NCBI RefSeq assembly: GCF_000371785.1
Contig: NZ_AQUI01000002.1
Coordinates: forward strand, 2,025,276-2,089,275
Source: Actinopolyspora halophila DSM 43834
GTDB lineage: Bacteria > Actinomycetota > Actinomycetes > Mycobacteriales > Pseudonocardiaceae
DNA length: 64,000 nucleotides
Direction of reading: 5' to 3'
Below, piece after piece: positions 46,657-63,606 of this stretch. Below the pieces are notes generated by a model. It did no database searches. It was given only the letters and a program-made list of their open reading frames with translations, and had not been told where the DNA came from. The position numbers were made by a program, and so were the translations under genes. Each line of letters starts with the position of its first letter. The stretch's first letter is position 1.

Positions 46657-47847
46657 TTACCCATCGTTTTGGGGGGAATCAGGGTGGAAAGAAGGTGAGT
46701 GTAGCCTCTCCAAAACATCCGCTGACCCATGCCGACCAGTGAACCGGCCCATGTACACGTCTTGAGTCATGGACGGGTGAGCATGGCCGAGCACATCAGC
46801 GATCTGGCGCGCCGTGAGCCCAGCATCGTCCAACAGCGTGGCCACCGTGCGTCGAAACGTACGGAACGTCACCCACTCATACCCGGCGCTGATACGGAAC
46901 GGGCCCCACGCTCTGTTGTAGATGTTGGCCGGTTCACGCGCCGTGCCCGTCGAGGACGGAAAGATCAGATCATCGTTTGCAGGCGGATCCGCGAGCTGTT
47001 CGCACCGCTCGGTAAGCATCCCCAAGCACCACTGGGGTAGGGGAATGGTACGGCGAGCAGCATCGGTCTTGCCGCTGTTGACGACCAGCCCCGTAGACGT
47101 GCGAGTGAGATTGCGCCCTATCGTCAGCTGCTGATTGCGATGGTCGACATCGTCCCAACGCGCGCCGAGCGCTTCACCGATCCTTTCGCCCGTGGCAAGC
47201 ATGAAGCGCACCAAGTCGGGAAGGTCATGCTTGCGGGCGTGCTCCGAGCGGTCCAGCCGAGCGAGTAGATCCAAGACCTCTTCCGTGGATAGCGCTCGTG
47301 AGGGAGTGCGATCGACTTCGAGCACGATGGCTTCGCGCACGGGGTTGTTCTTCATTGCTCCAGTGGTGACGGCGTACCCACACAGACCGGATAACACGCT
47401 GCGCACGGTGCGTGCGTTGGTGCTGGAGGTGTTGCTGCGCACATCACGAAGAACCCGGTTGATGGTCAACGTGCTCACTTCACGGGCCCGTAAGTTCCCC
47501 AGAGCCGGATACACCCATTGGTGCAGACGCTGGCGGTAGCGGTCCAACGTCGTTTGACTGCGTGCGCCCGAGGCGACTTCGTCGGTGACCTCGGTCAGCC
47601 ATTTGTCCCCGAGGACGCGCATCAAGGTGTCCGGGGACAGGACATCGTCGGGGGTCGCCTCGCGCCAGTCCCGGACCGCTTCACGTAGTCGGTTCAGTGC
47701 TTCGGTTTTGGTGGTTCCGAATCGTTCAGGACGGTGTTTCCTTCCCGCGTGGTCACGGTAGTTGCACCGGCAGCGCCACACACCGGGCTCCACCTCGTGG
47801 GCGGACATTTTCCCGGCTGTTCCGGGGGGTAGGGGTTGCCTAGGCAT
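46657..47847 (-). CDS. int: Tyrosine recombinase/phage integrase
   Basis: 396 residues. The N-terminal arm-binding part has CRCNYRDHAGRKHRPERF. A core-binding SAM-like region follows (about 90-180), then the catalytic domain. The first Arg lies in LATGERIGEALGARW. Box II reads VTFRTFRRTVATLL, so the usual HxxR histidine is replaced by Arg, a variant common in actinobacterial integrases. LGHAHPSMTQDVY supplies the final His and nucleophile Tyr. The start has GAGGAG nine bases upstream and overlaps the upstream membrane-protein gene by 8 bases. Its 3' end is about 100 bases from the attachment site. Confidence 0.95.
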   Translation of the reverse strand: MPRQPLPPGTAGKMSAHEVEPGVWRCRCNYRDHAGRKHRPERFGTTKTEALNRLREAVRDWREATPDDVLSPDTLMRVLGDKWLTEVTDEVASGARSQTTLDRYRQRLHQWVYPALGNLRAREVSTLTINRVLRDVRSNTSSTNARTVRSVLSGLCGYAVTTGAMKNNPVREAIVLEVDRTPSRALSTEEVLDLLARLDRSEHARKHDLPDLVRFMLATGERIGEALGARWDDVDHRNQQLTIGRNLTRTSTGLVVNSGKTDAARRTIPLPQWCLGMLTERCEQLADPPANDDLIFPSSTGTAREPANIYNRAWGPFRISAGYEWVTFRTFRRTVATLLDDAGLTARQIADVLGHAHPSMTQDVYMGRFTGRHGSADVLERLHSPSFHPDSPQNDG

Positions 47848-48193
47848 GGGGGTCGTCTCCTCGGTGCTGTTGGTGGCGCACCTCGCGTGCCACGGCCTCC
47901 AGGAACGCGTCCTGGTTGGCCTTTTTCGTGATCTCCGCGGCGAGTTCGTGCTTGTTGCGTTCCTGCTGTTCGGCCAACTCGCCCTGGAGCCGATCGAGGC
48001 GCAGGCGCACTTCTTCCTCGACGGTGTGGTGGATGCTGGCGTTGAAGTAGGCGATCCAGAGTAGACCGGCAGCGACGAGCGCGGGCCCGTCCCAGTCGTC
48101 GGACAGGGCTCCCACGAACAAGGCGACGACGACGAATAGCGACACCACGACCGCGCTGCCCAAGAGGAGATGATGGTGTTGGTACCCATCCAT
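47840..48193 (-). CDS. Small membrane protein with coiled coil
   Basis: 117 residues. Two TM segments (about 9-29 and 39-52) are followed by a charged helical region (58-100) likely to form a coiled coil. It lies between the repressor and integrase genes, a usual site for lysogenically expressed cargo such as superinfection-exclusion proteins. That function is not shown. Confidence 0.65.
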   Translation of the reverse strand: MDGYQHHHLLLGSAVVVSLFVVVALFVGALSDDWDGPALVAAGLLWIAYFNASIHHTVEEEVRLRLDRLQGELAEQQERNKHELAAEITKKANQDAFLEAVAREVRHQQHRGDDPHA

Positions 48194-48305
48194 GGCCGCC
48201 CCCTCTCCAAATTGTAGTTATCGCAGGTCATGCATGGTTTGCTACCGCGGGACCGTACGCCGTTTGGCCGTGTCCGTGTTGGAGCAAATGGGTGATTTTT
48301 TCGGA

Positions 48306-48773
48306 TTAGGTCTCGGCCCCGAGGGCGTCGTAGACCCGGTGGGCCAGACGCAGGAAGTTGTCGCGGCCGAGGACCGTGCCGATGGCGTGCAACAGCTGCG
48401 TGGCGGATTCCTCGGTGAGGTCTTTGAAGTTGACAAACCCAGTCGCGAGTTCTTCGGGCTCCGTTTCCTGCTGGGGTGTGGATTCGCCGATCCGGGGGCG
48501 GTCCTCGCGCAGGATGGGCGCGCCACCGCGAATGATCGATTCGATGCTGCCTGCGCGCCACCACAGGGCGTTCTCCAGGCGGCGCAGCAGCTTGGTGTCG
48601 TAGCGGTCGAGCGTGGCGTTTTCGATGGCCCACATGCGGTCACGGGACGGTCCGCCGCGCTCGGCGATGTCGTCTTGGCTGTAGCCGTATGAGTTACGTG
48701 CTGTGCGCACGGCTTCGGCCAGGAGTCGAGCGCCGTCTGAGCGATCATCATTGAGATTCGTCCCGCGTACCAT
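48306..48773 (-). CDS. Probable phage repressor (HTH/XRE-like)
   Basis: 155 residues. The N-terminal helix-turn-helix region (YGYSQDDIAERGGPSRDRMW) lies at residues 29-48. The C-terminal half probably mediates dimerisation. It faces leftward with integrase, divergent from a Cro-like gene, which is the layout of an immunity region. AAGAGG abuts the ATG, suggesting leaderless or weak translation. Confidence 0.8.
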   Translation of the reverse strand: MVRGTNLNDDRSDGARLLAEAVRTARNSYGYSQDDIAERGGPSRDRMWAIENATLDRYDTKLLRRLENALWWRAGSIESIIRGGAPILREDRPRIGESTPQQETEPEELATGFVNFKDLTEESATQLLHAIGTVLGRDNFLRLAHRVYDALGAET

Positions 48774-61322: not shown

Positions 61323-61585
61323 TGCGCCACCCCGACACGGCGTGGGGCCTGTGGTGGGTAGCCGTGCTGGTGAGCTTCACCGTGCTGGAAAGGCAGGCGC
61401 TCGGCGTCCCCACCGGTGGCTACACCTTGACCGCCACCACGAAACGATGGCTCGGCATCCACCCCGCACACCCGGTGCACCGAACCCTCGGCATGGCCGT
61501 CCTGACCGGCGCTGCCGTATGGACCGCGATGCACCTCTACGGCCCCGACACCAAACACCCAGGGTGCGTGTGGTGTGCCTCGTGA
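61319..61585 (+). CDS. Small membrane protein
   Basis: 88 residues. TM segments at about 10-24 and 56-70; CVWCAS C-terminus. Similar small membrane proteins are common just before HNH genes in actinophages. Function unknown. Confidence 0.65.
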
Positions 61586-61874
61586 CCCGTCCATGCGAGG
61601 CCGGGACGGCGGTCCCTACCGACGCCGCAGGCGAGAACTCAAAGCCCTTCGCCTGCCCTGCTGGCTCTGCGGCAGAGACATCGACTACGAGCTGGGATAC
61701 ACCGACCCGTGGTCGTTCACCGTGGACCACGTCATCCCCCTGTCCAAGGGGGGAGACCCGCTGGACTGGGGCAACCTGCGGGCGGCGCACTACCGGTGTA
61801 ACCAGCGTAAGGGGGACCAGCTCGTACCTATCAAGCATGACGTCGAGTCTTTTAGTACGTCTCGTGCATGGTAG
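61575..61874 (+). CDS. HNH endonuclease (packaging-associated)
   Basis: About 100 residues. CWLCG, then [15 protein letters not shown], and [15 protein letters not shown] supply the HNH residues. HNH genes next to terminase are usual in siphoviruses and take part in cos cleavage. The TSRAW end is typical of full-length homologues, so the gene is not truncated by the adjoining AT-rich insert. The start may be GTG 61575 or ATG 61593. Confidence 0.88.
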
Positions 61875-61921
61875 TGAACCAGACCAAGCACAAGTGGGAT
61901 TCGCTAATTTTGTTGGTAATT

Positions 61922-62605
61922 TTAATATAGAGCTTCTTTTATGTAGCCACCGAGAGAGGGTAGTGATTCAGTCGCTACTTCGTTTAGAGGGCGAAGTATA
62001 TATTCCATATGTTCTGCAAATCGAGTCAGCAAGGGAAGTTCGAGCGGTATTGGAGAACCTTGGAAGTATGCTTCGAGGGACTCGACCCCGTGATCACAAA
62101 CTCGCGGACTTAGTCTGAAGATGTCTCTGCCGATTTCTTTTTTGGGGAGTCCTCCAAGCATCAAAAAGGAGACTATTATTCCGAGTCTGCTCCGCAAGTT
62201 TTCTTTTGGGAGAAATCTGATATTGCCACTGAGGTGGTCGAATAGACGGTATAGCTCCATATATTCGGGAGACTCATCAAATCCTGTTGGGGAGAGTGCC
62301 ACAGGGAGAACGTCAGGGTCGGACCATCTTGCGTGGCGATCCTTCACTTCTTCAAGGTTCTCGATTGTCCTGATGACTAGCGCATCACCGCGCTCGCTAA
62401 TACAGCACGGGGCATTATGTGTATGCTTGGTTGTTTCGAGGGACTGCGTGTTTTCACTCTCTCCCAGAGAAAATAATTTGAATGTATCTTTCGAGTCATA
62501 GTTCTGGACAGTGACGTACCCGCCCTGAATCACGGTACCAGCGTTCCCTGAAAAGCTATTGTTGGTTCGATTACAGGGTTCACCGTAGTGTATCTGGTCA
62601 GGCAT
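61922..62605 (-). CDS. AT-rich cargo gene with RHIM/BASS3-like motif
   Basis: 227 residues, on the strand opposite to the lytic genes. Residues 15-31 (NNSFSGNAGTVIQGGYV) match the pattern N-x-x-F-x-G-x-x-G-x-V-x-Q-x-G-x-V known from RHIM-like amyloid signalling motifs (BASS3 type) at the N-termini of actinobacterial NACHT/STAND proteins. A linker follows; residues about 90-105 (DRHARWSDPDVLPVALSP) recall the short WxxDP-LPV segment that often follows such motifs. The C-terminal 120 residues (about 108-227) are helical with one hydrophobic stretch (LGIIVSFLMLGGL) and no catalytic motif that I recognise. Base composition is far lower in GC than its neighbours (24 of 60 G/C at 62161-62220). Function unproven; immune adaptor or effector is the favoured idea. 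Confidence 0.8.
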   Translation of the reverse strand: MPDQIHYGEPCNRTNNSFSGNAGTVIQGGYVTVQNYDSKDTFKLFSLGESENTQSLETTKHTHNAPCCISERGDALVIRTIENLEEVKDRHARWSDPDVLPVALSPTGFDESPEYMELYRLFDHLSGNIRFLPKENLRSRLGIIVSFLMLGGLPKKEIGRDIFRLSPRVCDHGVESLEAYFQGSPIPLELPLLTRFAEHMEYILRPLNEVATESLPSLGGYIKEALY

Positions 62606-62790
62606 ATTCCGAGACCTAATCTGCTCTGAATAAGGTTGTTCGTTAATGTATTGTCGAAGACCGGGATAATATTATACTACTTCGAAATATTGGTTCTGAT
62701 GTAGGGTAAACTTGCATATATGTTCTGTCTTATATGTTAATAGTTATATCTATTAATAGATTGATACTCTATTAGATTAATGTCTTATTA

Positions 62791-62854
62791 GTCTAATAGT
62801 CTAATAGTCTAATAGTCTAATAGTCTAATAGTCTAATAGTCTAATAGTCTAATA
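62791..62854. repeat. Tandem repeat: eight perfect GTCTAATA units
   Basis: Eight exact 8-bp copies run from 62791 to 62854, followed by degenerate units (GGTTATTA, GTTCAATA, GGTTAATA and others) to about 62910. The upstream flank holds related ATTAGATTAAT text. It lies 186 bases behind the start of the RHIM-like gene, on its promoter side. Confidence 0.93.
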
Positions 62855-63045
62855 GGTTATTAGTTCAATAGGTTAATAGATAATTATATTATTAGGTTAT
62901 TAGATTAATAGTATGACTCTGCATCATTAGATTAATAGTGGTAGAGACAGTGCTTTAGTAGGTTAGTAAGGGTAAGTACTGCTAGTGGGAGTCCCTTAAC
63001 CGGTGCCGGTACTTTGGGTCCCTGGGCGGGTACCTGCACTGGAGT

Positions 63046-63095
63046 CCCGTGGGTACCGGTGATGGGAGTCCCGGCAGGGCTCCCGTGGGTACCGG
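63046..63095. repeat. Direct repeat CCCGTGGGTACCGG
   Basis: Exact copies at 63046-63059 and 63082-63095, spaced 36 bases, with further partial copies (CGGGTACC, CCGTGGGTA) nearby. Possibly a packaging or terminase recognition site. Confidence 0.7.
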
Positions 63096-63321
63096 GAGTC
63101 ACGGGTACCACTACCGTGGGTAGTCGATGGGCCCCCGAGGGGGTGGAGCGGGAGTAGGGGGTACCCCCTTGATCGAGGATCTTTGGGGGGAGTCGTGAGC
63201 GCGGGGGGATCGACTTTTTCTCTCCCCACTGTGTGTAACCGTTGCTCACGGTAGGTGAGAGCGTCGTTTTTGCAGGTCAAACACTCAAAAATGGTTAAAA
63301 AAGGGTCGGAAAGGCGTCAAA

Positions 63322-63606
63322 ATGAGCGTAGATCCTTCAAAATCGGCCGAACTCGTTGAAATCGTCTCTCGCGGGGACCGACTGACCGCGTTGCAGGCCG
63401 CTCGGGACGCGCTGGCGGTGGAGATGGCCCGTTTGCAGACACACAGCCTGGCCAACGAGGCCGCCGGGCGCGATTTCGCGGTCATGACCAAGGAGCTGTC
63501 CCGGATCATGGCCGAGATCGACGAGATCGGCGGGGTGACGGAGAGCGACTCTGTCGACGAGCTGACGCAGAGACGTTCCCAGCGAAGGAAAGCCCAGGAA
63601 GGCTAG
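63322..63606 (+). CDS. Small pre-terminase protein (terminase small subunit-like)
   Basis: 94 residues. Helical, with RLTALQAARDALAVEMARLQ, the middle MTKELSRIMAEIDEIGG and a VDELTQRRSQRRK tail. This pattern is usual for the first late gene of actinophages, often annotated as a small terminase subunit. It shows balanced G/C use, unlike the early genes. Confidence 0.7.
   Translation: MSVDPSKSAELVEIVSRGDRLTALQAARDALAVEMARLQTHSLANEAAGRDFAVMTKELSRIMAEIDEIGGVTESDSVDELTQRRSQRRKAQEG

Follow-up and report, generated by a model that had tools for sequence, protein, structure and literature searches.

What is the one gene in a short AT-rich segment of an Actinopolyspora halophila prophage, and does the start of its product link the phage to amyloid-type signaling proteins of its host? 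The window, by which we mean the whole stretch of DNA that was analyzed (64,000 nucleotides), is 66% G+C. The segment at 61875-62945 is 41% G+C, and the gene within it, which encodes the 227-amino-acid protein P0001, is 47.5% G+C. The features that matter here are:

46657..48633, minus strand: prophage integrase (PHROGs)
61575..61874, plus strand: phage HNH endonuclease, the last gene before the cargo (Pfam and PHROGs)
61922..62605, minus strand: cargo gene P0001, 227 amino acids, the longest ATG open reading frame of segment 61875-62945
61967..62329, minus strand: C-terminal domain X, P0001 residues 93-213 (homolog L002; remote relatives L108 and L130)
62330..62509, minus strand: linker, P0001 residues 33-92, which holds a second glutamine (Q34) at a BASS3-like spacing
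62510..62563, minus strand: candidate N-terminal motif of amyloid-signaling type, residues 15-32, NNSFSGNAGTVIQGGYVT (from a matrix test without P0001)
62606..62945, no strand: AT-rich region upstream of the P0001 gene, 340 bases, 27% G+C
62789..62855, no strand: tandem repeat upstream of the P0001 gene, 8.4 perfect copies of the 8-base unit TAGTCTAA
63322..63606, plus strand: terminase small subunit, the next phage gene after the cargo (weak PHROG match)

The prophage and its cargo gene

The P0001 gene interrupts a run of phage genes. Before it, PHROGs identify an integrase, an exonuclease, a primase/helicase, and the HNH endonuclease; after the terminase small subunit, and beyond the window, they identify the terminase large subunit, portal, major head protein, and tape measure. 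The small subunit itself matches its PHROG at E = 1.8e-4, and a family of unknown function matches slightly better. An extra gene within the phage gene order, on the opposite strand and with a differing base composition, is what is called a moron, and the P0001 gene has all of these features. The original prediction had proposed this layout, and both the position among phage genes and the orientation against the lytic genes hold. It had also described a sharp drop in G+C content after an HNH gene that ends intact in TSRAW; we obtained the same counts (24/60 at 62161-62220 and 15/60 at 62701-62760), and the open reading frame at 61575-61874 does end in ...TSRAW.

The reading frame of P0001 is longer than any in 500 dinucleotide shuffles (227 versus at most 157 amino acids). 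Two plus-strand frames, one of 126 amino acids (62121-62501) that overlaps the P0001 gene and one of 306 amino acids that passes through the HNH gene up to 62118, were taken as chance. RNA families gave 0 matches. Upstream of the gene, the perfect copies of TAGTCTAA sit in a longer degenerate array with the same 8-base register (about 62732-62927). A scan of the minus strand from 61800 to 63350 found no sigma-70-like promoter, the one type that it covered, so it is the layout, and not a promoter match, that suggests expression of P0001 from the lysogen.

In 27 of the 30 phage records listed (of 821 matched, with several duplicates among the 30), the relative of the HNH gene is found in the final 1 kb. 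Because these relatives are near the record ends, the P0001 gene is probably at the junction where the ends of the phage genome meet. Just before the terminase genes, window positions 62976-63165 are G+C-rich and contain repeated GGGTACC and GGGAGTCCC boxes; this stretch is perhaps a cos or packaging region.

We found no homolog of the whole P0001 protein in phages, plasmids, IMG/VR, genome contigs, or 100 relatives. Domain-profile searches for whole-length homologs also found none in genome contigs and IMG/VR, nor in the 9 other genomes of the genus, and P0001 has no match in Pfam, PHROGs, NCBIfam, or PADLOC. Relatives of the terminase small subunit are present in 2 of 385 other genomes of the family and on 1 viral contig. 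In these three loci, tblastn with P0001 gave no significant match (best E value 2.2); the sequence covered before the small-subunit gene was at most 1.5 kb, and the loci do not come from close siblings.

The N-terminal motif and its counterparts in the host

The core pattern of RHIM motifs is [VI]Q[VIL]G. Residues 15-31 of P0001 (NNSFSGNAGTVIQGGYV) had been proposed to be a RHIM or BASS3 motif, but the core pattern has 0 matches in P0001, where the site reads IQGG. The fungal PP pattern, NxGxQxGxN, is absent from P0001 as well. What is present is a pair of glutamines 7 residues apart, with a glycine two residues after the first (IQGGYVTVQ, residues 26-34). This arrangement occurs in 9 of 20,000 shuffles and in 1 of 918 open frames, for a pattern that was chosen after seeing P0001, a peptide from Frankia, and the glutamine mutants of a BASS3 motif from S. 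atratus. The Frankia peptide, as given in Table 2 of PMC8086366, has the same glutamine spacing and the glycine two after the first. In PMC9815663, the BASS3 motif of S. atratus has conserved glutamines (Q113 and Q120), which were mutated in that study. Because the third core residue of P0001 is a glycine and only the glutamine spacing is shared, the label "RHIM/BASS3" is too specific. The idea of an N-terminal motif stood, and the motif appears to be of the type carried by NB-ARC proteins; a strict RHIM assignment did not.

As we define it, this motif is N-x-[FYLV]-S-G-x-A-x-N-V-V-Q-A-G-x-[VI], carried by NB-ARC/STAND-type proteins. A matrix made from 27 instances that were gathered from loci, with P0001 left out, gives P0001 a score of 27.97 bits, with the match placed at residue 15. 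The best of 100,000 shuffles scored 23.2, and the 918 other open frames all fell short of P0001 as well. When the 27 instances were scored with each one left out in turn, they ranged from 23.4 to 53.3 bits (median 38.9), with 2 of the 27 below P0001, or 1 of 27 with another background. The result was far weaker with HMMER: against a profile of 24 instances, P0001 scored 4.1 bits (E = 6.6) and was outranked by 2 of 2,000 shuffles and by 2 of 585 frames of the window. The strength of the match differs between the two tests, and we gave greater weight to the matrix because the match in P0001 is ungapped and is at the expected N-terminal place. A degenerate motif pattern, which was written from P0001 itself, matches 62520-62560; none of 100 shuffled versions of the window contained it.

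Profile A4 was built solely from the two motif-bearing NB-ARC proteins of the genome that encodes P0001. It has matches in 83 of 249 genomes of the family, including all 10 genomes of the genus (E ≤ 0.05 per genome, at which about 12 of the 249 could be chance). As judged by eye, most of the matches listed sit in frames of 500-1000 amino acids. We scanned 10 of 21 long frames, all 10 from outside the genus. NB-ARC is matched by 7 of these (above the cut-off in 5); with other NTPase models included, the number rises to 9, and the tenth has a weak match to TPR only. These comparisons support the view that the P0001 motif is more than a chance match and would belong to the motif set of NB-ARC/STAND-type proteins.

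Small proteins can carry the motif too. Several small proteins pair it with segments that look by eye like membrane or helical segments; in those at L099, L116, L118, L121, and L123, the motif is close to the N-terminus and precedes what look like membrane segments. The highest 19-residue hydropathy in P0001 is 1.17. A regular expression for the motif proved too strict on NB-ARC loci: it matched 0 of 13 frames (from 35 loci) and missed even L028. To look for the motif in phages, we used two degenerate patterns, the first of which fails on P0001 and the second of which matches it. They hit 6 stretches in IMG/VR, and none of these resembles a motif protein by eye. The IMG/VR locus L140 has a 118-amino-acid frame with the pattern near its start.

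The host genome encodes five NB-ARC loci above the cut-off. We read all five N-termini and found the motif in two. Both of these proteins match NB-ARC above the cut-off, and TPR repeats are above the cut-off in one and below it in the other. Their genes are at 906 kb and 2816 kb of contig C2, and the P0001 gene is at 2087 kb. No receptor gene adjoins or overlaps the P0001 gene, whose neighbors are the phage HNH and terminase genes. The suggestion that P0001 has a partner NTPase elsewhere in the host thus gains two motif-bearing candidates in the same genome, and the adjacent genes are phage genes with no NTPase among them.

A search of the same genome with a profile of P0001 and the two host proteins returned all three of them, as well as L073 (E = 0.168) and L074 (E = 1.05). 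L073 is a small host protein whose C-terminus, after a short alanine-rich part, is NNQFSGTANNVVQGNQFGRIEFNS. It is kept in the 4 other genomes of the genus that were checked (loci L110-L113), where it ends in VNQFNGNAHNVVQGETFDRIEFNG. L073 has no match to a Pfam family, and its NCBIfam match is only at E = 0.1. We take the layout of L073 and of L110-L113 to be like that of Bell effectors. In P0001 and L073, a glycine follows right after the core glutamine, and 23 of the 27 instances have an alanine there. At this residue, the putative prophage motif is nearer to L073 than to the receptors.

Domain X and its relatives

Among 390 genomes of the family, residues 93-212 of P0001 have one clear homolog, L002 (E = 9.3e-11; 27% identity over 123 positions), and two weaker matches (E = 0.027 and 0.043). 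L002 has 134 amino acids, has no motif, and is followed by a Crp-like gene. This Crp-like gene matches the Pfam families for cNMP binding and the Crp helix-turn-helix, and it has PADLOC matches to Pycsar models. The next two genes after it look, when read by eye, like a nucleotidyl cyclase and an ATPase; neither has a Pfam or PADLOC match, and L002 has no PADLOC match. Relatives of the cyclase-like gene are found in 9 plasmid records. One of these is the Streptomyces plasmid L025, where a gene annotated "Pycsar system effector family protein" occupies the slot before Crp. A search for L002 itself gave one chance-level match in plasmids (E = 0.4) and none in phages.

Clusters of Crp-like, cyclase-like, and ATPase-like genes, the latter two assigned by eye, are at L006 (9696-13367), L023, L024, and L025. 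In these clusters, a short segment at the C-terminus of the cyclase-like protein recurs in the N-terminal part of its ATPase-like neighbor, such as FSHHGEHGVQTYNLFGTG and FTHAGKHGIQAYNLHLNG in L025. We judged this segment by eye in four loci, and it is least clear in L023. It looks like an amyloid-type pairing within a Pycsar-like system.

A remote relative of domain X turned up among 394 genomes from another family of the class, at an E value of 0.0015 per genome, which is weak alone. It has an N-terminal membrane-type helix, as judged by eye, and it matches a protein from a Streptomyces plasmid (E = 8e-17). The gene for this remote relative (L131, 6342-6872) has several CRISPR-like arrays with a 61-base period at a distance of about 0.5 kb (7453 onward). 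A profile comparison of the two domain X pairs gave a probability of 89%. In a sample of the phylum, profile A2 matched 13 of 395 genomes besides the host genome at E values of 0.0047-0.046. Neither L002 nor the remote relatives have a motif of the P0001 type, as judged by eye. Against solved structures, domain X from P0001 alone gave nothing below E = 0.49, and a four-row profile of domain X gave a weak match to the antitoxin MazE9 (E = 0.0037 over 34 residues). Domain X appears to be a rare domain and is most likely an effector part.

Possible roles and comparison with known systems

Our preferred reading, which we hold tentatively and at slightly below an even chance, is that the P0001 gene is prophage cargo that encodes an adaptor or effector, in which a host-type motif of the amyloid-signaling kind is joined to the rare domain X. 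A host NB-ARC protein, when triggered by superinfection, would expose its motif; the resulting assembly could template the P0001 motif; and domain X, once clustered, would then act, so that the second phage is stopped or the cell is killed. The motif match, the motif proteins in the same genome, the homology of domain X, and the location in the phage are the sequence basis of this reading. From these we infer the amyloid templating, the direction of signaling, the action of domain X, and expression in the lysogen. More generally, and again with a little less than even confidence, the prophage protein may enter the amyloid-type NLR signaling of its host by way of a shared motif, either arming the lysogen as an effector or acting as a bacterial-virus counterpart of a decoy RHIM protein. 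We favor the effector because the stand-alone homolog of domain X sits in an effector-like slot.

The decoy is the main rival and draws on the same facts; we consider it unlikely. The P0001 motif would cap or poison the host assembly and so block host cell death that is triggered by infection or induction, with domain X as a solubility or capping part. The gene is phage-borne, its motif resembles that of host L073 at the Gln-Gly position, and a herpesvirus has been described that encodes a decoy RHIM protein (PMC7375649). However, a motif-less homolog of domain X in the effector-like slot of a chromosomal cluster suggests an active domain, and the orientation against the lytic genes would fit expression from the lysogen better than early lytic expression.

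We think it somewhat less likely still that P0001 is an ordinary moron for superinfection immunity or stress, in which domain X acts by itself, the motif only self-assembles P0001, and no host NB-ARC protein is a partner. The lack of an adjoining receptor is as expected for such a gene, as are a homolog and remote relatives of domain X that lack the motif (judged by eye). Against this explanation, two of the NB-ARC proteins encoded in the same genome bear the motif, as does a small conserved protein. Least likely of all, and quite improbable, is an accidental motif match or a decaying insert without present function: the weak HMMER score, the failure to find a homolog of the whole protein, and the lack of a promoter match agree with it, but no shuffle or other open frame reached the matrix score, and the P0001 frame is uninterrupted and exceeds the length of all those in the shuffles.

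If the preferred reading of P0001 as cargo that shares a motif with the host is true, then a prophage may plug into, or block, the alarm system of its host. With a receptor, a partner, and a virus-borne copy of the motif in one host, this is a compact case in which all three can be tested together, and the effector and decoy readings predict opposite results in this host. A literature search returned no paper on a phage-encoded bacterial amyloid-signaling motif among the matches listed, with few subscription journals or preprints covered.

The BASS motifs of NLR/Bell pairs were reportedly described by Dyrka et al. in 2020. BASS are short motifs that NLR-like proteins carry N-terminally and a small partner carries C-terminally (PMC7889193, PMC8086366, PMC9815663, PMC12261475). 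This host genome similarly encodes both an N-terminal receptor motif and a C-terminal motif in a small protein. In contrast, P0001 is small and phage-borne, has its motif at the N-terminus together with a domain of another kind, and lacks an adjoining receptor gene. P0001 also differs from Bell-type effectors, whose motif is C-terminal and follows a helical domain with a hydrophobic helix, in that its motif is at residues 15-32. With BASS3, RHIM, and fungal PP motifs, P0001 shares the pair of glutamines at a spacing of 7 and the glycine at the second residue after the first glutamine, an arrangement also seen in the Frankia peptide tabulated in PMC8086366, but it has neither the RHIM core nor the PP pattern. 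The resemblance to Pycsar-type systems is through L002 and the Crp-like gene beside it, which matches Pycsar models in PADLOC; unlike those systems, P0001 has no Pfam or PADLOC match, and L002 and two further neighbors have no PADLOC match. Finally, like the decoy RHIM protein of a herpesvirus (PMC7375649), P0001 would be a virus-borne protein with an amyloid signaling motif of the host type; there, cell death is inhibited, and the motif of P0001 is a different one.
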